Assembly: GCF_001613545.1 (NCBI RefSeq)
Contig: NZ_BDCO01000002.1
Coordinates: 868,001 to 932,000 of the forward strand
Direction: 5' to 3'
DNA from: Terrimicrobium sacchariphilum
Lineage (GTDB): Bacteria; Verrucomicrobiota; Verrucomicrobiia; Chthoniobacterales; Terrimicrobiaceae
Length of the DNA stretch: 64,000 bases
Part shown: positions 5,551 to 17,298 of the stretch, in pieces
How positions within the stretch are numbered: position 1 is the stretch's first letter
Layout: the number at the start of each line of letters is the position of its first letter
The notes under the pieces: model-generated
What the model saw: the letters and a program-made list of their open reading frames with translations, nothing else
What the model was told of the DNA's origin: nothing
Database searches by the model: none
Made by a program: the position numbers and the translations under genes

Positions 5551-8007
5551 TCAGGAAACGCGCTCCCACCGGCCGCCGGGCAGGTGACGATGGAGGGCGG
5601 CTCCGTCGTCCTCGAGGGCGAAGAGGAGGAGCCAGCCGTGGTCGACGAGCTGGCGGACGTGGGCGTGGCGGGCGAGCACGGTGTCGATGGCGTGGCGCGG
5701 GGCCTCCAGCACGACGTGGAGCCGCAGGGGTTCGTGCATCCAGCGGGAGCCGTCGGAGACGGACTGCAGGGGCAGGCCGGTCTGGAGGTCGCCGCCATTG
5801 CCGAGGCAGACGCCGAGGGTGCCGACGACGTTGTGGATGGTCTTGTTGCCGCTGCCGAAGGCGGAGTTGTTCACGGTGGAGGCGTAATACTGGAGGTTGA
5901 TCCAGTTGGCCACGATCATGGGCGCGCACATGATGAGCTCGAGGACGGAGCCGTCGGTATCGGTGCGGTGGTCGTAGCTGTGGAGGAAGACGCGGCCGCC
6001 GAGGTGGGCGTGCCGGGTGCGGTGACGCGGCGCGGCGATGAAGGCGGCATTGCCCGCGAGTCCCCACTCGGGCCGGACCTGGGACCAGTCATTACCCTGA
6101 AGCGCGACCTTTTCCCGCAGGGCGGGGTCGGTGCTTTCCAGGCCGAGGTGGGCGGCGCGTTCCGTGCGGGCGCGGGTGCCGGCGAGGGCGAGCCAGCCCT
6201 GGAGTTCGGCGAGGTCGCACTGGTGGGTGGCGGGGACGTGGTCGATGTCAAAGACCCGCACCTCGTCGGTGGTGGTGTCGTGCAGCGCACCGAGGAACCA
6301 GGTGTCGGCGGGAATGGACAGTCCGTCCTCGGCGAGCGCGGCGCGGATGCGCGGGTCATTGAGGATGGCGGCGGCGAGGCGGGCATTGGTATCCCCGGCG
6401 TGGCCGCCGCAGGCCCCGCAGTCGAGCCCGGCGGCGTAGGGGTTGTTGGTCGTGGTGCTGCCGTGGCCGCAGAGGAGGACGAGCCGGGCAAAGTCGCGGG
6501 TGAGGCCCATGTTGCGCAGGGCTCCCCGGGCGAGGGCGACGCGCTCGGGCAGCGGGATGCCGCCGTCGCCGTGGCTGGCGGGATCGGGCGACGGGCAGCA
6601 GCCGTGGTGGTGGGAGTGAGTGTGCGCGGCGGGGGCGAAGGTGTTGCGGAAGAGCTTCGCGCCAAAGGCCAGCCCGGCGGTCTCGACGAAGGAGAAGCAG
6701 GTGATGGCGGAGGTCTTGAAGGAATTCCACGAGTGCGTGATTCGCCGGGCGAGCCGCTGCTGCCGCGCGATCTGCTGCTCTTTTTGCGGAGTGACCCCGG
6801 GGAGAGTCTCGTGCACGCGGTATTTCGGCGTGAGGAGGACGGGGCATTGCGCGACGGGCTTCCGCTGGCCGAAGGGAACGACCTCGACGGGCAGGCCGAA
6901 GAACCCGGCGAAGCCGAGCGTGTGGATGGCGGGGGAGGCGGACTCCAGCGCGCGCCGGAAGACCTCGGATCGCACGTCGATGCAAAAGACGGCCTGCACG
7001 GCGGGCCGGGCCGGGGTTGCGGCGACGGCGGCGGGCGTCTGAAGCGTGGCGGTGAGCCGTGTGAGCCAGGCGTGCTCCTCGGCGAGTTGAAAGAGGTAGC
7101 TCTGGAGCATGGCGGCGGGGGAGGCTTCGCCGGGGGCGGGCCAGAATTCCCGCAGCGCCGGGCTGTCGTACCGGGCGAGGAGGGCGGCATCCCAGGCGAG
7201 CCGGATGGCGAGGAGGTCGCGCAGGGAATCATCCACATGATCGTGCATGGACTGCTCCCTCACCCGATACTGGACGTAACCCGCCCAGCCGCGAATGGTG
7301 AGGAGCTGCTTGTGGAGGTAGTCGGCGGGGTCGGCCTCGAGCCGGAGCAGCGGGATGAGCCGGGCGATGGCCTCGCCGCCGTCGGCGGGAAGCGAGCGCA
7401 CCCAGCCCCGGAAGCCCGCGAGGCCGTGGATCTCGGGGTCGGCGTCGAGAAGGGCGTGTTCGCGCCAGGCCTGGAAGAGCGGGAGATGCCGCCAGGGCAT
7501 GCGCCAGGCGGACTGGCCCGCATCGTAATAGGCGGCGCTGAAGTGGCTGATCGACTCGACGATGTACGCGGCCCAGGCAGAGCCGTGCTGCCGGTCGACG
7601 GCCTCGGCCACGGTGGGCAGGGTGTCGGGCGCGGCGGCTGGTTCCGCAAGGGCGGCGCGGAGCGTGGCGGGCGTCCACTCCGCGATGAGCGCGGCCTGCG
7701 CGGGGGGAAGGGTTTTTCCCGCCTGGGCGAGGGCGGCGGAGAGGTCGGGAGCGGTCAATTCTCCAGCGGCGAACTTTTGCGCATAGTACGAGGCGGGCAT
7801 CTGCATGCCGCCGGGGAGGAGGCGGGACATGAGCTGGCAGGCATCGGTAAAGGGCCGGTCGGCGAGGCCGAGGAAGGGATTTACCGCGACGAAATGCTGG
7901 AGCGGCCAGAGCGGGGCAATGCGCGAGCAGGCGGCGCGGGCAGCGTCGAGGAGGAGGGCGGCTTCGCCCGGGCTGGCGTGGGTTTCGGATGAGGCAATAG
8001 TATTCAT
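5551..8007 (-). CDS. dabA: DabA, zinc-dependent subunit of the DAB inorganic carbon transporter
   Basis: The 818-residue protein belongs to the DUF2309/UPF0753 family, now known as DabA, a beta-carbonic-anhydrase-like protein that with DabB takes up inorganic carbon in an energy-coupled way. The four zinc-site residues known from Halothiobacillus DabA (C351, D353, H524, C539) are all present with the same spacing: C342 and D344 in FCIDVRSE, H515 in LCGHGS and C530 in LDCGACGG. The WPLQHFVAVNPF segment near the N-terminus is also family-typical. The start at 8007 is chosen because homology begins there; a longer frame upstream overlaps dabB and is proline/arginine-rich. It lies 14 bases downstream of dabB. 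Confidence 0.93.
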   Translation of the reverse strand: MNTIASSETHASPGEAALLLDAARAACSRIAPLWPLQHFVAVNPFLGLADRPFTDACQLMSRLLPGGMQMPASYYAQKFAAGELTAPDLSAALAQAGKTLPPAQAALIAEWTPATLRAALAEPAAAPDTLPTVAEAVDRQHGSAWAAYIVESISHFSAAYYDAGQSAWRMPWRHLPLFQAWREHALLDADPEIHGLAGFRGWVRSLPADGGEAIARLIPLLRLEADPADYLHKQLLTIRGWAGYVQYRVREQSMHDHVDDSLRDLLAIRLAWDAALLARYDSPALREFWPAPGEASPAAMLQSYLFQLAEEHAWLTRLTATLQTPAAVAATPARPAVQAVFCIDVRSEVFRRALESASPAIHTLGFAGFFGLPVEVVPFGQRKPVAQCPVLLTPKYRVHETLPGVTPQKEQQIARQQRLARRITHSWNSFKTSAITCFSFVETAGLAFGAKLFRNTFAPAAHTHSHHHGCCPSPDPASHGDGGIPLPERVALARGALRNMGLTRDFARLVLLCGHGSTTTNNPYAAGLDCGACGGHAGDTNARLAAAILNDPRIRAALAEDGLSIPADTWFLGALHDTTTDEVRVFDIDHVPATHQCDLAELQGWLALAGTRARTERAAHLGLESTDPALREKVALQGNDWSQVRPEWGLAGNAAFIAAPRHRTRHAHLGGRVFLHSYDHRTDTDGSVLELIMCAPMIVANWINLQYYASTVNNSAFGSGNKTIHNVVGTLGVCLGNGGDLQTGLPLQSVSDGSRWMHEPLRLHVVLEAPRHAIDTVLARHAHVRQLVDHGWLLLFALEDDGAALHRHLPGGRWERVS

Positions 8008-8021
8008 CGGGTGCGGCGGAC

Positions 8022-9629
8022 TTAGAGGGTGGTTTTCGGGCTGAGGCTGGCAAGGAACCGGTGGGCGTAGCTGCCGAGGTAGAAACCCCGGGAGGCGTGG
8101 ACGTAGAGGGCCTGCCCGAGCCGCGCGCCGGACCAGGCGGGGAGCTGGGACTGGAGGACGAGCAGGGCGAGGAAGAGGAGCGCGATGAGCGCCATCACGC
8201 CCAGCTCCCACGCGGCGCGGGGCGGCGCGTAGTGCGGCAGCGCGGGGGCGAGGAGCCATTCAAAGACGGCGTGCAGGGTGAAGTAGCTGAGAGCGGCGAG
8301 CGAGGAGAGGCCGAGGCCCGCGCCGACGAGGCCCCACCGGTGCGAGGAGGACCAGAGGTTCCACAGGAGATAGGCGACGGCCATGGTGAAGACGCTGCCG
8401 AGGAGGAGCGCTCCGTGGTTGACCGTGAGGCCGAAGAGGCTGCCGATGCCCCAGGTGATGCTAATGGCCGTGAGCAGGATCGCGGCGAGGATGCCGGGGT
8501 GCGCGGCGGGGCGGCCCGAGGGCGTCCAGGCGGACTTGCTCATCTGCACGATGCTGCCGGAGGAGAGGAAGGCGTAGGCCTTGTAGAGCGAGTGGGCGAC
8601 GATGTGGAGGATGGCGAGGGCGAAGGCGCCGAGGCCACATTGCAGCATCATGAAGCCCATCTGCGCGATGGTCGAGTAGGCGAGCGAGCGCTTCACGCTG
8701 GTTTGGGTGAGCATGACGGCGGAGGCAAAGATGGCGGTGAAGGCGCCGACGACGGCGAGGACATTGAGCGCGGCGGGCGAGAGGACGATGAGCGGGCTGA
8801 GCCGCACGACGAGAAAGCCGCCGGCATTGATGATCCCGGCGTGCATGAGCGCGGAGACAGGCGTGGGGGTTTCCATCGTCTCGGGCAGCCAGGAGTGGAA
8901 GGGGAATTGCGCCGACTTCAGGATCGCGCCGAGGACGAGGAGGATGCTGACTGCTCCGCAGAGGCCGGGATGGACGCCGCCTGCGCCGGGGGATTCCGCC
9001 AGGGCAAAGAGCTGGTGGAAATCCCAGGTGCCGTGGCAGTGCCAGGTGAGAATGAGCGCGCCGACGATGCAGGCCTCGCCGAGGCGGCTGATGAGGAACT
9101 TCTTCCGCGCCGCGCCGCGAGCCGCAGGCCGGTCGCCGAAGAAGGTGAGGAGCTGATGCAGGCCGAGGCTGGTGGCGATCCACGCGAGAGTGAAGGCGAG
9201 GAGGTTGCCGCTGAGCACGAGGACGAGCACGCAGCCGGAGGTGACGGCGAGCCATTTGCAAAAGTACCCCTGCCGCGCATCGCCGCCGAGGTAGTTCACC
9301 GAGTAGCGCGTGACCACGGCGGAGAGGAAGGAGACGAGCAGCGCCATGGTGAGCGAGAGCGGGTCGAGGAGGATATTCACGGACGCCGCGCCGAACCCGA
9401 TGGGCCGGGCGGCGGGCTGTGGGATGAGCGTATGGAACAGCGCGGCCAGTGCGATGAGGACGAAGGCGCAGAGAGCCAGGGCCGCGACGGCGCGGGCGAA
9501 GGATTTCCCGGCCTGGTTGGCGAGGCGCGACGGGACGAGCACGAGAGCCAGCAGCGCGAGCGGCCCGGCCATGGCAAGCAGGGTGGTGAGGCTGGTGGCT
9601 GCGGAGGCAGCGGACGGCGTGAGATCCAT
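8022..9629 (-). CDS. dabB: DabB, NuoL-like proton-conducting subunit of the DAB transporter
   Basis: The 535-residue polytopic membrane protein (about 13-14 hydrophobic segments) belongs to the complex I NuoL/Mrp antiporter family. The core segment FPFHSWLPETMETPTPVSALMHAG is the conserved proton-antiporter signature, followed by GGFLVVRLSPL and a second SLAYSTIAQMGFMMLQ motif. Adjacency to dabA with a 14-base gap identifies it as DabB rather than a complex I subunit. It is expected to supply proton flux that energises DabA. It is first in the operon, and its start faces a divergent LysR gene 83 bases away. Confidence 0.92.
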   Translation of the reverse strand: MDLTPSAASAATSLTTLLAMAGPLALLALVLVPSRLANQAGKSFARAVAALALCAFVLIALAALFHTLIPQPAARPIGFGAASVNILLDPLSLTMALLVSFLSAVVTRYSVNYLGGDARQGYFCKWLAVTSGCVLVLVLSGNLLAFTLAWIATSLGLHQLLTFFGDRPAARGAARKKFLISRLGEACIVGALILTWHCHGTWDFHQLFALAESPGAGGVHPGLCGAVSILLVLGAILKSAQFPFHSWLPETMETPTPVSALMHAGIINAGGFLVVRLSPLIVLSPAALNVLAVVGAFTAIFASAVMLTQTSVKRSLAYSTIAQMGFMMLQCGLGAFALAILHIVAHSLYKAYAFLSSGSIVQMSKSAWTPSGRPAAHPGILAAILLTAISITWGIGSLFGLTVNHGALLLGSVFTMAVAYLLWNLWSSSHRWGLVGAGLGLSSLAALSYFTLHAVFEWLLAPALPHYAPPRAAWELGVMALIALLFLALLVLQSQLPAWSGARLGQALYVHASRGFYLGSYAHRFLASLSPKTTL

Positions 9630-9712
9630 GCTGTTATTTAGCCGGATCGCGAAAATTCTATCCAATATATGTTCTATTCATTATCGTTCACTTAAATAGA
9701 ACGATCATCGAC
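9630..9712. promoter_or_regulatory. Divergent dabB/LysR control region with overlapping inverted repeats
   Basis: This 83-base, A/T-rich gap separates dabB (leftward) from the LysR gene (rightward). It holds two overlapping dyads. GTTCTATT at 9671-9678 pairs with AATAGAAC at 9695-9702 (16-base spacer). ATCGTTC at 9683-9689 pairs with GAACGAT at 9699-9705 (9-base spacer). Interrupted dyads of this size in a divergent gap are the usual layout of LysR operators, so the LysR protein probably binds here and controls both directions. The binding itself is inferred. Confidence 0.65.
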
Positions 9713-10597
9713 ATGGCGTTTTTGAATTATCACCACCTGCGGTACTTCCGCGCGATCGCGACGGAGGGGACTTTGACGAGCGCGGCGGAGCGTCTCAATA
9801 TTTCGCAATCGGCGCTCAGCATCCAGCTGCGCCAGCTGGAGGAGAGTCTCGGGCAGGCGCTCTTTACGCGGGAGAACAAGTCGCTCGTGCTGACGGAAGC
9901 CGGGCGCATCGCGCTGGAGTACGCGGAGTCGATCTTTCGTGCGGGTGAGGAGCTGGTGGCGGTGCTGAATCATGAGACAGGCGGGCAGCGGCGCGTGGTG
10001 CGGATCGGCGCTGTGGCGACGCTGTCGCGGAATTTCCAGACGAACCTGCTGCGGCCCCTGGTGGGGCGCGAGGACATCGAGCTCGTGCTGCGCTCGGGCA
10101 ATCTGCGGGACCTCCTCGCGCAGCTCCGCGCGCACACGCTGGACGCGGTCTTGTCGAATCTCCCGGTGCGTCGCGATGCGGAGACGCCGTGGCACAGCCA
10201 TCTCATCGATGAGCAGCCGGTGAGCCTGATCGGGCTGCCGACGCGCAAGCGGACGAAGTTTCGTTTCCCCGAGGACCTGAGGCAGACGCCCGTGATCCTG
10301 CCGAGTCTGGATAGCAATATCCGCCCCGCCTTTGACCTGATGATGGAGCAGTACGGCATCCGCCCGATCATCGCGGCGGAGGTGGACGACATGGCCATGC
10401 TGCGCCTGCTCGCGCGCGAGGGCGCGGGGCTGGCGCTGGTGCCGCCGGTGGTGGTTAATGAGGAACTGCGCACGGGCCTGCTGGTCGAGCGCTGCCAGGT
10501 GCCGCAGATCCGCGAGAGCTTTTACGCGATCACACCGTCGCGGCGCTTCCCCAATCCCGTGCTGGCTGAGATTCTAAAGGGTCACGGGCTGGGGTAG
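9713..10597 (+). CDS. LysR-family regulator, NhaR-like, divergent to dab operon
   Basis: The 294-residue protein starts MAFLNYHHLRYFRAIA, very like the opening of NhaR, and has a winged helix (residues about 5-65, with TSAAERLNISQSALSIQLRQ as the helix-turn-helix) followed by a LysR substrate-binding domain with MLRLLAREGAGLALVPP. LysR genes often sit beside dab operons and other inorganic carbon genes. The position opposite dabB across an 83-base dyad-rich gap argues that it regulates the operon and itself. The inducer is unknown; NhaR answers to sodium, so sodium, pH or bicarbonate are candidates. Confidence 0.88.
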   Translation: MAFLNYHHLRYFRAIATEGTLTSAAERLNISQSALSIQLRQLEESLGQALFTRENKSLVLTEAGRIALEYAESIFRAGEELVAVLNHETGGQRRVVRIGAVATLSRNFQTNLLRPLVGREDIELVLRSGNLRDLLAQLRAHTLDAVLSNLPVRRDAETPWHSHLIDEQPVSLIGLPTRKRTKFRFPEDLRQTPVILPSLDSNIRPAFDLMMEQYGIRPIIAAEVDDMAMLRLLAREGAGLALVPPVVVNEELRTGLLVERCQVPQIRESFYAITPSRRFPNPVLAEILKGHGLG

Positions 10598-10708: not shown

Positions 10709-10749
10709 ATACGACAAATGTAGTGACAGACGTACTACATTTGTCGTAT
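10709..10749. promoter_or_regulatory. BlaI/MecI-type operator: perfect 16-base inverted arms
   Basis: ATACGACAAATGTAGT (10709-10724) and ACTACATTTGTCGTAT (10734-10749) are exact reverse complements separated by nine bases. Each arm contains TGTAGT or ACTACA and is itself a near-dyad (ACGACA-AA-TGTAGT), which resembles the ACTACA-n-TGTAGT sites bound by BlaI/MecI/CopY repressors. The two near-dyads are centred 23 bases apart, about two helical turns, so two repressor dimers could bind side by side. The site ends ten bases before the repressor start and would block its own operon. Confidence 0.8.
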
Positions 10750-10759
10750 GGCGTGAGGC

Positions 10760-11152
10760 ATGAAGGAAATCCCGAAGATCTCGGATGCGGAGTGGGACGT
10801 GATGAATGTCCTGTGGGAGGAGCCAGGGTTGACGGCGGCGCAGGTGGGCGAGCGACTGAGCGGGCGAGGGTGGAAGCTGAACACGGTGCGGACCTTTTTG
10901 ACGCGGCTGGAGAAGAAGGGGGCGGTGCGTGCGACGGAGGTGCCGGAGGCGCGGGTGTTTTCGGCGGTGCTGAGTCGCGAGGAGTGTATTCATGCGGAGG
11001 GGCGGACGTTTGCGCAGAGGTTCTTTCAAGGGGCGACGGGGGCGCTGCTGGTGCATTTCGCAGGGAATACGAAGCTGAGTGACCGGGAGTTGAAGGAACT
11101 GGAGGAGATCCTGGAGCGGAAGCGGAAGGAGGGTGGACGTGGCCGCCGCTGA
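10760..11152 (+). CDS. BlaI/MecI/CopY-family repressor
   Basis: The 130-residue protein has the family winged helix at residues 1-75 (ISDAEWDVMNVLWEEPG, then TVRTFLTRLEKKGAV, the recognition helix) and a C-terminal dimerisation helix region. In relatives, a BlaR1-type protease signal leads to cleavage or release of this repressor and induction of the operon. ATG 10760 is preceded by GTGAGG, and a perfect operator lies directly upstream. The stop lies 14 bases inside the next gene. The target is not necessarily beta-lactamase; no such gene is present here. Confidence 0.92.
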   Translation: MKEIPKISDAEWDVMNVLWEEPGLTAAQVGERLSGRGWKLNTVRTFLTRLEKKGAVRATEVPEARVFSAVLSREECIHAEGRTFAQRFFQGATGALLVHFAGNTKLSDRELKELEEILERKRKEGGRGRR

Positions 11153-14100
11153 CATCCTGGTCGCGCTGTTGCAGGCCTCCTGGCAGGCCTCCGTGGGCAT
11201 TGTACTGCTGCTGGCGGTGCGGGCGCTGGCGGGGAGATTTGTTTCGGGCTGGTGGCTGTATGTGCTGTGGCTGCTGGTGATGGTGCGGCTGCTGGTGCCG
11301 GGAAGCATCCTGCCGGTATCACCTGCTCCGCTGCCGCGGCCTGCCGCGCTGGTGCAGGTGCGGGAACAGATGCAGGCGGAGCCGGTGGAGTTGACCCCGG
11401 TGGTGGCGGTGGCCGAGACGGTGACGCAGCGCGGGGGGCAGGAAATCCATGTGAGGACGGAGGTCCGAAAGGCGCGGCCATTGAGCTGGCAGCAGGTGCT
11501 GGTGATCGTGTGGGCGTCGGGCGCGGGGCTGCTGGCGATGTATTTCCTCGGCGCGGCGGTGTGGCTCGATCGGCGGATTCGGCGCGGAGAGCGGCCGACC
11601 CCTCAGGCGGTCGCGCAATGGTGGGCGGAGTGCCGCGGGCACATCCCGGCGGGGCGGCTGAGGCTGGTGACGAGCGACGCGGTGAAGGCTCCGCTGCTCT
11701 TTGGCCTCCTCCGGCCGAGGCTGGTGCTGCCGTGCGGGCAGCTGGACGGTCTTTCCCGCGCGGACTGGGAGCATATCTTTCTGCATGAGCTGATGCATCT
11801 CCGCCAACGGGACAACTGGACGAACCTGCTGCCTCTGGCCGCGCTGTGCGTGCATTGGTTCAACCCGCTGGTGTGGCTGAGCCAGAGAGCGATCCGTGCC
11901 GACCGCGAGCTGGCCATCGACGAGCGGGTGCTGGGTTTCCTCGGGGAGGAGCGGGGGGAGGATTACGCCCGCACGCTGCTGCGGGTGCTCACGTCGGGCG
12001 GGGATTCGCGGCTGCTGCCGGGGGCGATCGGCATCGTGGAAAGCGGGGCGGGGATGAAGCGGAGGTTCCGCCGGATCGTGGAACTGCGCGCGCCGCGTCT
12101 CGCCGTGATGGCGCTGGGCGGAGCGGCGCTGTGTGCGCTGGCGCTGGTCGCCTTTGGCCAGGAGGGGAAGCCTGAGGCAAAGGGGAAGCCGGATGAGCAG
12201 ATCTCGCTCGCCTCGATGCAGGACATCAAGGCGCAAATCCTCGCGGCGGCCCGCGCGGGTGATGCGGTGAAAATCGTGAAGATCCAGGAGGTCGCGGGCG
12301 ACCGGCAGATGCCCTTCCGGAAGGAGGATGCGAGCGATCTGCTGGAGCAGCTCATGGCGGAAGGGGACGTGCCGACGTTTACCATCCTGCTGGAGACGCT
12401 GCGCAAGAGCCATGCGGGGATCGAGTGGCAGCCGGGCGCGGAGGCTCTCACCGGGCTGGTGAAGCGCGACCGGCGGGATTTTCTCGAGGCGCTCTTCAGC
12501 CACCGGGTGAAGCTCGATCTGTTCACCCCGGAGGTGATGCAGGCGGCGGGCGCGTCGCAGCCGTGGCTGGAAAAGCGTGTGGCCGAGGTGCGCCAGCAGC
12601 GGACGAATGTTGACCTGCTCGTGCAGGCGAGCAAGACCGGCGACATCGCGGAGATGACGCGGCTGCTCGATGCGGGGGTGGACGTGGATGGCGTGGCGTC
12701 GGATGATTTCACGCCGCTGACCCGCGCGGCGGTATCGGGTCAGGCGGCGGCGGTGAAGCTGCTGCTGGCGCGCGGCGCTCAGGTGGACAAGCCGCGCCTG
12801 CCCGGGTGGGACTACACGGCGATGTGCCTGGCGAAGACGGTGGAGGTGGCGCAACTGCTGAAGGACGCGGGTGCGAATGTGAATGCGACGCTCTTTGGCC
12901 GACCCGAGCCGATCGTGACGTATCCTGCGCGGTGGGCGTCGGTCGATGTGGTGCGGTGGTTCCTCGACAACGGCGTGGATGCGAAGACGGCGCACTACGA
13001 CGATCCCAGCCTGCTCTTCAGCGCAGGCCGCCCAGAGACGGCGGAACTGCTGATCGAACGAGGAGTGCCGGTGAATGCCAGGGAAGAGTCGGGCGAGGCT
13101 GCGCTGACCTGGATCCTGCGCTTCGTAAAGAATCCCGCCCAGATCGCAAAGGTGCTGCTGCGGCACGGGGCTGATCCCAACGCGCGATCGCGCGGAGGAG
13201 TGGTGCCGCTGATGGTCGCGCCGGATGGGGAAACCGTGGATGCGCTGATCGCCGCCGGAGCGGATATCCTGGCCAAGGATGATCGCGGGGGCAGCGTCTT
13301 GCAGTACTTTGGCGGCGAGAAGGCTGATCCCAGCAGGGAAGAGGCCCTGCGCAGGCACGGGCTGGTGCTCACCGATGAGGCGGAGGGCCTCGCCCTGATG
13401 GGGCGGGCGATTCTTGGAAACGATGTGGATCAGGTAAAACGCCTGCTGGCGCAGGGGGTGAATCCAGACCGGGAGGTAATCGGATATCAGCAATATCTTG
13501 AGTCCTCCAAAATGGAACTGGCGACGAGCTTTGGACGCTTTGAGATCGTGAATGTCATGCGTGCGGCGGGTGGAAAGGATGTCGGCTTGCTCAGCCAGGC
13601 GGCTGCGGAGGGCGATATCGCAAAGATAAAGGAGCTGCTGGCCGCAGGGGCGAAAGTTGACGAGACGACGAGCATGGGTGCGACGCCACTTTCCTTTGCC
13701 GTGAGGCGCGGTCAGCTTGAGTCTGTGCGTGTGCTGCTCGATGCGGGGGCTGATCCGGCGCACTTTGGCCGGATGGGGTTCACTCCGATGTCGTACGCCG
13801 AGTTCATGGTGACTCAATGGGAAAACCAGGGCAGCAATACCGTCCAGCAGACGAATTTGTCCCCGGAGGATGAGAAGGCATTCTGGTCGCAGGCTGTGGC
13901 CCTGATGGAGCCGCGCTACCCAAAGGCGGAGCCGGTCGATGCGAGTGGCGATACGGCGCTGACCATGGCCTCGACCTGCGGCAACTTTTTGCCCGTGCAT
14001 CCGCTACTCCGCCGGGGGGCGAATATCAACCATCAGCGGCCCGATGGAATGACACCGCTGATGATCGCCATCGTGACGAAGCCAAAGAATGCCAGGCGGG

Positions 14101-14315
14101 ATATGGTTACGAGTTATGACCCAAAGACCGGGGAGAAAAAGCAAAGCTCCATCGCGGCGAACTATGTCGGATCGCTCCTCGAAGTGGGAGCGGATGTGAC
14201 GCTGCGCAACCGCGAGGGCAAGACCGCCCTCGACCTCGCCCGGGAGCGCAATGATGACGAGATCGTCGCGCTGCTCACCGCGCCGCGTGACCCGGCCCCA
14301 ACCAAAAATCCATGA
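11139..14315 (+). CDS. BlaR1-type M56 membrane metalloprotease fused to a long ankyrin-repeat region
   Basis: The 1058-residue protein has a BlaR1/MecR1-like N-terminal half: hydrophobic segments near residues 6-27, 34-52, 118-143 and 322-342, and the zinc motif HELMH at 216-220 with the downstream ADRELAIDERV helix carrying the third ligand. In BlaR1 the part after the last membrane segment is an external penicillin-binding sensor. Here it is about 700 residues of ankyrin-like repeats (for example TPLTRAAVSGQAAAVKLLLARGA, shortened: the TPL...A..G....V..LL..GA pattern recurs many times, with some irregular spacers). The start at GTG 11139 has AAGGAGG six bases upstream; GTG 11133 abuts it. 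It overlaps the repressor gene and ends in an ATGA overlap with the next gene. Confidence 0.88.
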   Translation: MAAADILVALLQASWQASVGIVLLLAVRALAGRFVSGWWLYVLWLLVMVRLLVPGSILPVSPAPLPRPAALVQVREQMQAEPVELTPVVAVAETVTQRGGQEIHVRTEVRKARPLSWQQVLVIVWASGAGLLAMYFLGAAVWLDRRIRRGERPTPQAVAQWWAECRGHIPAGRLRLVTSDAVKAPLLFGLLRPRLVLPCGQLDGLSRADWEHIFLHELMHLRQRDNWTNLLPLAALCVHWFNPLVWLSQRAIRADRELAIDERVLGFLGEERGEDYARTLLRVLTSGGDSRLLPGAIGIVESGAGMKRRFRRIVELRAPRLAVMALGGAALCALALVAFGQEGKPEAKGKPDEQISLASMQDIKAQILAAARAGDAVKIVKIQEVAGDRQMPFRKEDASDLLEQLMAEGDVPTFTILLETLRKSHAGIEWQPGAEALTGLVKRDRRDFLEALFSHRVKLDLFTPEVMQAAGASQPWLEKRVAEVRQQRTNVDLLVQASKTGDIAEMTRLLDAGVDVDGVASDDFTPLTRAAVSGQAAAVKLLLARGAQVDKPRLPGWDYTAMCLAKTVEVAQLLKDAGANVNATLFGRPEPIVTYPARWASVDVVRWFLDNGVDAKTAHYDDPSLLFSAGRPETAELLIERGVPVNAREESGEAALTWILRFVKNPAQIAKVLLRHGADPNARSRGGVVPLMVAPDGETVDALIAAGADILAKDDRGGSVLQYFGGEKADPSREEALRRHGLVLTDEAEGLALMGRAILGNDVDQVKRLLAQGVNPDREVIGYQQYLESSKMELATSFGRFEIVNVMRAAGGKDVGLLSQAAAEGDIAKIKELLAAGAKVDETTSMGATPLSFAVRRGQLESVRVLLDAGADPAHFGRMGFTPMSYAEFMVTQWENQGSNTVQQTNLSPEDEKAFWSQAVALMEPRYPKAEPVDASGDTALTMASTCGNFLPVHPLLRRGANINHQRPDGMTPLMIAIVTKPKNARRDMVTSYDPKTGEKKQSSIAANYVGSLLEVGADVTLRNREGKTALDLARERNDDEIVALLTAPRDPAPTKNP

Positions 14316-14794
14316 AGACCGTACCGATCGCCCTCCTGGCACTCTTAGCATTCACCCTGAAGGCAAAGGCTATCACCGCCGATGATCTGGCGTTTTACCT
14401 CGGCATATCGAGTTGGAAGACCAGCGTCTTTCTCGAAGCCGGGACCTATGTGCCGGAAATCTACGAGATCCGGGACGGCAAGGTCGACCGGAAGATCCTC
14501 GACGGGATGAAGGAATGGGCGGTCAAGGGAGCGCCCGGCCTGACGATCATGCTCGGCCCCGAGGGCCAGGGCTACCGGGTGGTGCTGGCGTATCAGGGGG
14601 GCACGACCGTGGGCGGGTCGAGCACCTTCGAGGGGCGGTTTGGCAGCGCGGTCTCGCCAACTCTGCCCGAGAAGATCCGGGAGGGAGAGTACGTCCTCAT
14701 CGGCGAGCCGAAGGGCCGGATCATGAGAGTGAGTGATGATATATCGGACTACAAAAGAGGATTCCTGCTGCGCATCCGGCTGGTGAAGGAATGA
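14312..14794 (+). CDS. Small secreted protein coupled to the BlaR1-ankyrin gene
   Basis: The 160-residue product starts MKTVPIALLALLAFTLKAKA, a clean signal peptide with probable cleavage after AKA. The mature part (DDLAFYLGISSWKTSVFLE, then a GYRVVLAYQGGTTVGGSS stretch and a basic end) matches no family I know. Its start codon overlaps the stop of the ankyrin fusion as ATGA, so the two are translationally coupled and probably made in similar amounts. That coupling suggests a functional link, perhaps a periplasmic partner of the ankyrin region; this is inference. Confidence 0.72.
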   Translation: MKTVPIALLALLAFTLKAKAITADDLAFYLGISSWKTSVFLEAGTYVPEIYEIRDGKVDRKILDGMKEWAVKGAPGLTIMLGPEGQGYRVVLAYQGGTTVGGSSTFEGRFGSAVSPTLPEKIREGEYVLIGEPKGRIMRVSDDISDYKRGFLLRIRLVKE

Positions 14795-16278: not shown

Positions 16279-17298
16279 ATGGCACGGCAGTTGCGTATCG
16301 AGTACAAGGGGGCGGTTTATCATGTGGTGGCGCGGGGGCGCGATGGGGCGGCGATTTTTCATGATGACACGGACCGGGAGGCGTTTCTGCGCACGGTGGG
16401 CGAGGCCTGCGCGCGCGGGGGCTGGCGGGTTTATGCGTATGTGCTGATGGCGAATCATTACCACCTCGTGGTGGAGACGCCGGAGGGGAATCTCTCGACG
16501 GGCATGAAGTGGCTGCAAAATGCGTTCACGCGGCGGCTGAACGGGCGTCACGCGGGATGGGGCGAGGTGTTTGGCGACCGCTATCGCGCGATCGTGGTGG
16601 AGGCGACGGGCGGAGGTTATCTGGAGTCGCTGGTGGATTTTGTGCATCTGAATCCGGTGCGCTCGGGCGTGGTGAAATCGCGCAAGGATGGCGCACTGGC
16701 GGGGTATGCCTGGAGCAGCCTCGCGGCGGGGTATGCGGTGGCGGCGTCGGATCGCCCGGCGTGGCTGGCGGTGGAGGCGGGTTTGCAACGATACGGCCTC
16801 GCGGACCGGGCGGCGGACCGGAGGAAATTCGTCGCGCGTACGCAGGCGCTGGCGCGGGAGACGGGCGGCGAGGTGACGGGGCCAAACGACGGCGCGCAGA
16901 ATACTTTGCATCGCGGCTGGTACTGGGGCAGCCCGGCCTTCCGCGAAAAGCTGCTCAAGCGGCTGGAGAGACCCTCGGCCCGGCTGAAGCCGCGTGCGGC
17001 GCAGTCCATACGACCGCGCGACCGGCGCAAGGCGCAGGAATGGCTCGACCTGGCGCGGAAGCACTTTGGCGTGACGGGAGACTTTGCCAAGGCTCCGCGA
17101 GCCGCGCGTGTCGCCGCCGCCTGGGCGCTGCATTCCCGCACGAACGAATCGCAAGCCTGGATCGCCGACACGCTCGGCCTGCGCTCCGCTGCGAACGTGA
17201 GCCAGCAGGTCCGTAGCGTCGACCAAGGCACCCACGCCGCCCTGGCCGGCGAAAAGCGCTGGCGCTCATGGGAGCGGCTGGTGCGGGCGGGGGCGTAG
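16279..17298 (+). CDS. RAYT/IS200-like (Y1) transposase, catalytic tyrosine replaced
   Basis: The 339-residue protein has the Y1_Tnp HUH-nuclease fold: YKGAVYHVVARGRDG at the start and the metal-binding HUH motif NHYHLVVETP (H60, H62). Relatives have a conserved tyrosine in D-Y-[IV]-H-L-N-P-V-R, equivalent to Y115 of E. coli TnpAREP; here it is F121 (VDFVHLNPVRSG). A second tyrosine usual in the TYTxRFNRRH helix is also Phe (F83, NAFTRRLNGRH). The C-terminal third has a DnaA-like helix-turn-helix (AWIADTLGLRSAANVSQQV, close to it). The gene is full length without frameshift, so it may be a domesticated DNA-binding protein rather than an active transposase. Confidence 0.85.
   Translation: MARQLRIEYKGAVYHVVARGRDGAAIFHDDTDREAFLRTVGEACARGGWRVYAYVLMANHYHLVVETPEGNLSTGMKWLQNAFTRRLNGRHAGWGEVFGDRYRAIVVEATGGGYLESLVDFVHLNPVRSGVVKSRKDGALAGYAWSSLAAGYAVAASDRPAWLAVEAGLQRYGLADRAADRRKFVARTQALARETGGEVTGPNDGAQNTLHRGWYWGSPAFREKLLKRLERPSARLKPRAAQSIRPRDRRKAQEWLDLARKHFGVTGDFAKAPRAARVAAAWALHSRTNESQAWIADTLGLRSAANVSQQVRSVDQGTHAALAGEKRWRSWERLVRAGA

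Follow-up and report, generated by a model that had tools for sequence, protein, structure and literature searches.

Organization of the operon

Within the window, a stretch of 64,000 nucleotides from the genome of Terrimicrobium sacchariphilum, three genes form an operon at 10760-14794: blaI, an M56-ankyrin fusion and a gene for a small secreted protein. The first (10760-11152, +) codes for P0002, a BlaI/MecI-type repressor of 130 residues recognized by the Pfam family Penicillinase_R (E 6.7e-28), and overlaps by 20 bases the second (11133-14315, +), which codes for an M56 (BlaR1-type) membrane metalloprotease of 1060 residues carrying an ankyrin array. A GTG at 11139, six bases 3' of an AAGGAGG, is a better placed start for the fusion and perhaps the true one, shortening the protein by two residues. 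The third gene (14312-14794, +) overlaps the end of the fusion by an ATGA at 14312-14315, is translationally coupled to it and codes for P0003, a protein of 160 residues in which a signal peptide (MKTVPIALLALLAFTLKAKA, assigned by eye) is plausible. A sequence-only reading of this DNA had already named the repressor, the M56 protease with HELMH and four membrane segments, and the signal-peptide protein starting in the ATGA overlap, and all of these assignments hold. It set the start of the locus at 10709; a perfect inverted repeat, which it did not describe, begins at exactly this base.

Genes for DabA (Pfam E 3e-267) and for a proton-antiporter subunit resembling DabB, accompanied by a divergent gene for a LysR regulator, lie directly 5' of the switch (5551-9665, -, and 9713-10597, +); the DabA/DabB-like genes are probably an inorganic-carbon uptake operon. 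An IS200-like (Y1_Tnp) transposase is found just 3' of the operon (16279-17298, +). The fusion is absent from both congeners of this genome; since neither of them has a close relative of the LysR regulator, an empty site could not be read beside it.

The protease core and the ankyrin array

The membrane and zinc-protease part of the fusion comprises residues 1-341 (11133-12155, +). Peptidase_M56 matches residues 11-312 (Pfam, E 2.1e-52), hydrophobic segments lie at residues 8-26, 44-62, 122-140 and 323-341, and the HEXXH...E zinc protease, with HELMH at 218-222, is placed between the third and fourth of these. In the 42 rows of an M56 alignment, H218, E219, H222 and E259 never vary; E259 is the probable third zinc ligand, and the predicted zinc site is intact. 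By sequence alone the fusion matches Staphylococcus aureus BlaR1 with E 1.6e-4 (phmmer), and the NCBIfam model blaR1_generic matches only residues 19-318, with 154 bits against the 400 required. An AlphaFold2 model of the fusion, built on 42 rows (pLDDT 78.7), aligns with BlaR1 8exs at Z 21.5 over 259 residues (rmsd 6.2), model residues 8-309 lying on BlaR1 1-292, and with 8ext at Z 21.2 (rmsd 4.2). Ranked by Z, the top structural matches are S. aureus BlaR1 for the membrane and protease part and ankyrins for the tail; with a pTM of 0.44, the full model does not predict how sensor and protease are placed relative to each other.

The array follows a linker (residues 343-486; 12159-12590, +) without a recognized repeat, residues 343-487 being helical in the model, mostly at low confidence, and having no Pfam ankyrin match. 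From about residue 488 to 1054 (12594-14294, +) the protein consists of tandem 33-residue helix-loop-helix repeats of the ankyrin family, in 12-15 units of very uneven quality. Ank_2 matches four stretches of the fusion (E 1.7e-38), alongside other ankyrin families in Pfam, and solved ankyrins align to model residues 488-1054 with Z about 20. The earlier description of ankyrin-like repeats in place of a sensor is thus borne out, with the qualification that the recognizable repeats cover about 560 residues rather than the approximately 700 claimed. The penicillin-binding (class D beta-lactamase-like) sensor is absent, only ankyrin families matching after residue 343 in Pfam.

Operator and repressor

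The perfect inverted repeat at 10709-10749, just 5' of blaI, has the form ATACGACAAATGTAGT-N9-ACTACATTTGTCGTAT and is a candidate BlaI-type operator. It contains two ACANNTGT dyads, ACAAATGT at 10714 and ACATTTGT ending at 10744, 23 bp apart, which is the arrangement of the bla and mec operators; TACANNTGTA-type candidate operators stand 5' of blaI here, as in a BlaI/BlaR1 pair. Shuffling gives an expectation of 0.02 such dyad pairs in the window with one mismatch allowed. The full dyad is unique to the operon in the whole genome, while a looser double dyad, with one mismatch, occurs once elsewhere, in a G+C-rich stretch, and the 13-base half site occurs once elsewhere, 5' of the blaI of an M56-secretin pair. 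Because all three are nearly confined to the operon genome-wide, the circuit looks private to it, and a genome-wide search with the double dyad and the 13-base half site gave no support for a wider regulon at that stringency.

Five BlaI-M56 pairs with differing tails are present in the genome, and among the other four, two have their own ACANNTGT-type sites while the remaining two have a different repeat. The M56-secretin pair has a BlaI-linked M56 protein with a secretin tail (L067:5693-7546, -; Pfam E 1.7e-17), and because its operator half site differs from the studied one by one base in 13, cross-talk between the two switches is possible. Two further pairs, L065 and L066, have CarboxypepD_reg tails and a TGCTGA..TCAGCA-like upstream repeat, as if operator type followed sensor type. 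Among the 12 fusion loci at which a blaI is called, our own included, dyad pairs 22-25 bp apart occur at five, compared with 0.005% of shuffles, and at least one dyad lies in the 150 bases before blaI at seven, compared with 4% of shuffles. The motif is absent 5' of blaI at the remaining five, in some of which the start calls may be wrong.

Almost the full length of P0002 can be aligned with S. aureus BlaI and MecI (phmmer, E 9e-15 to 4e-14), and N101-F102, where BlaR1 cuts S. aureus BlaI, corresponds to its H99-F100. The P1' residue, phenylalanine in P0002, is phenylalanine in 72 and leucine in 23 of 97 aligned repressors (95/97); the S. aureus row of this alignment was entered by hand, and the PDB alignment shows the same correspondence. 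This conservation is compatible with the M56 protease cutting BlaI.

Distribution of the fusions

Searching 384 genomes of the class and reading the loci revealed another 13 M56-ankyrin fusions, spread over ten genomes, a count that is a lower bound, two candidates per genome having been scored. A blaI is called beside ten of the 13, and in one fusion (L078) a frameshift or stop interrupts the reading frame. When about 85,000 species genomes were scanned with the fusion alignment, most matches were ordinary M56 proteins, and one was a fusion from a planctomycete, a Pirellulaceae bacterium (L117); a phylum-wide search, in which M56 matches outside the class were judged on full-length similarity to the fusion, produced no new full-length match. 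Placing the ankyrin label on a tree of 124 M56 domains takes nine changes, four or more of them on well-supported branches, with details left unsure by the long branches of L054 and L117. These changes speak against a single origin of the fusions and imply that M56 sensors have been repeatedly exchanged, gained or lost.

Other tails were seen in the course of this survey. The M56 core of L048:4513-7254 (+) is closely related to the studied one and carries a helical-repeat-like tail with units around 'NPKAAxxxAxxLP' and no Pfam family, an apparent further sensor swap. A BlaI-linked M56 protein at L073:947-3832 (-) resembles Wzz (chain-length determinant) at residues 322-393, with a Pfam E of 5.6e-4 that is below the family cut-off. 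Large M56 proteins are found at L056:4109-8182 and L062:3480-7580 and also in L074 and L075, two of the four being shown with CarboxypepD_reg and C-terminal AhpC/TSA (redoxin) domains; each is followed 3' by a secreted-looking gene of about 440 codons, possibly a conserved pair.

The proposed switch and its probable output

The reading of the operon as a BlaI/BlaR1-type switch with the ankyrin array in the sensor's place, which the sequence-only reading had put forward, is well supported by gene order, domains and fold match, by the operator pair, the intact zinc site and the conserved residue at the cleavage site, and by the recurrence of the fusion in other genomes. We estimate a probability of about 60% that it is a self-contained antirepressor switch with an ankyrin input outside the inner membrane and P0003 as one extra output. 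BlaI dimers on the two operator dyads before blaI would keep the three-gene operon nearly silent, while the M56 protein would span the inner membrane, its zinc-protease loop facing the cytoplasm and its array the periplasm. On engaging a ligand, most likely a protein or peptide given the usual role of ankyrin repeats, the array would change the membrane part, and the activated protease would then cut BlaI near H99-F100 and derepress the operon, P0003 being the only output besides the switch itself.

The array might instead be a holding or structural part, for example one binding wall-associated or outer-membrane proteins, the trigger being envelope damage or removal of the array by signal peptidase. 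BlaR1 is itself cleaved by signal peptidase between its last transmembrane helix and its sensor (PMC9834060), the corresponding residues 344-357 of the fusion, just past the last transmembrane segment, have pLDDT below 50, and the repeated exchange of sensor domains in the family would also suit a part of this kind. We nevertheless consider this account unlikely.

It is a quite improbable reading that the array binds P0003 or a partner of P0003 as its ligand in a feedback loop, a proposal that the sequence-only reading had itself staked on the gene being conserved beside other fusions. The ATGA overlap and the signal peptide would allow the co-made products to meet in the periplasm, but across the 384 class genomes relatives of P0003 (34% identical) are found in only two, both of the window's genus: there is a second copy 2.6 Mb away in the genome studied and another relative in a congener without an M56-ankyrin fusion, neither of them near a blaI or M56 gene. 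None is present beside the 14 other readable fusions, most of which have no tightly coupled downstream gene; by eye, the genes 3' of them are glycoside hydrolase-like, YgfZ-like or sulfatase-like, or none is close. The survey and these neighbourhoods lead us to reject P0003 as a conserved partner of the fusion, and the proposal is not supported. We take P0003 to be a lineage-specific addition, because its relatives are confined to the genus and the genes behind other fusions are unrelated, and the analogy with blaZ makes an output a more likely role for it than that of signal or ligand. P0003 has no known family in Pfam and no credible match in a PDB sequence search, and its single-sequence AlphaFold2 model (pLDDT 43) was too poor for a fold search.

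Topology of the array

CarboxypepD_reg and secretin are extracytoplasmic kinds of domain, and one or the other occupies the position of the array in M56 paralogues of the same genome, while redoxin or Wzz-like domains are found there in M56 relatives elsewhere. Around the last transmembrane segment of the fusion, seven Lys/Arg occur in the 15 residues before and three after; across 14 fusions these residues are richer before than after in 12 and equal in two. BlaR1 has an extracellular C-terminal sensor and a cytoplasm-facing protease that cleaves BlaI at N101-F102 (PMC9834060). Because BlaR1 homology, the Lys/Arg bias and the extracytoplasmic-type tails of the paralogues point the same way, as does the fold model, the array is likely to lie outside the inner membrane, and the earlier placement of it on the far side of that membrane is retained at this strength. 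That the last hydrophobic segment fails to place the array outside, so that it senses or scaffolds something cytoplasmic, would suit the general knowledge that ankyrin repeats occur mostly in cytoplasmic proteins and that long exported arrays are uncommon, but is very improbable in the face of four transmembrane segments as in BlaR1, the positive-inside pattern at the last of them, the superposition on BlaR1 residues 1-292 and the domain kinds in the equivalent position of the paralogues.

Implications of a proposed exchangeable sensor

If the operon is an antirepressor switch with an exported ankyrin input, the array may read a periplasmic protein and the BlaI-M56 core may serve interchangeable sensors, each with private operators; we regard this extension as tentative, at a little under even odds. 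Were it true, one genome would run several insulated switches of the penicillin-resistance type for unrelated signals. The BlaR1 signalling pathway is established for beta-lactams. Natural fusions that join its protease core to unrelated domains would reveal the demands that the membrane part makes on a sensor, which the BlaR1 structures (PMC9834060) do not settle, and M56-sensor fusions would offer a proteolytic switch with variable input. No paper on M56-ankyrin fusions was found in the literature searched, a scope that most subscription papers fall outside.

Comparison with known systems

Over residues 488-1054 the fusion shares its repeat fold with ankyrin repeat proteins such as ankyrin-1/2, the DARPins and the sensor domain of RNase L, from which it differs in that its array is part of a bacterial membrane protease and is probably exported. 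Other M56 fusions of the class, with CarboxypepD_reg, secretin, redoxin or Wzz-like tails, have the same M56 core, usually a BlaI partner, and a large C-terminal domain of extracytoplasmic type that replaces the BlaR1 sensor; the studied protein is set apart by its ankyrin tail, and the upstream repeats of its two CarboxypepD_reg paralogues look different. Close parallels are also BlaI/BlaR1 and MecI/MecR1 of Staphylococcus aureus and BlaI/BlaR1 of Bacillus licheniformis, with which the operon shares the repressor family and operon neighbourhood, the M56 fold and zinc site, the paired TACANNTGTA-type operators and the cleavage-site phenylalanine. In contrast to these systems it has an ankyrin array and no penicillin-binding sensor, and in place of a beta-lactamase or PBP gene the coupled gene codes for a secreted protein of no known family.
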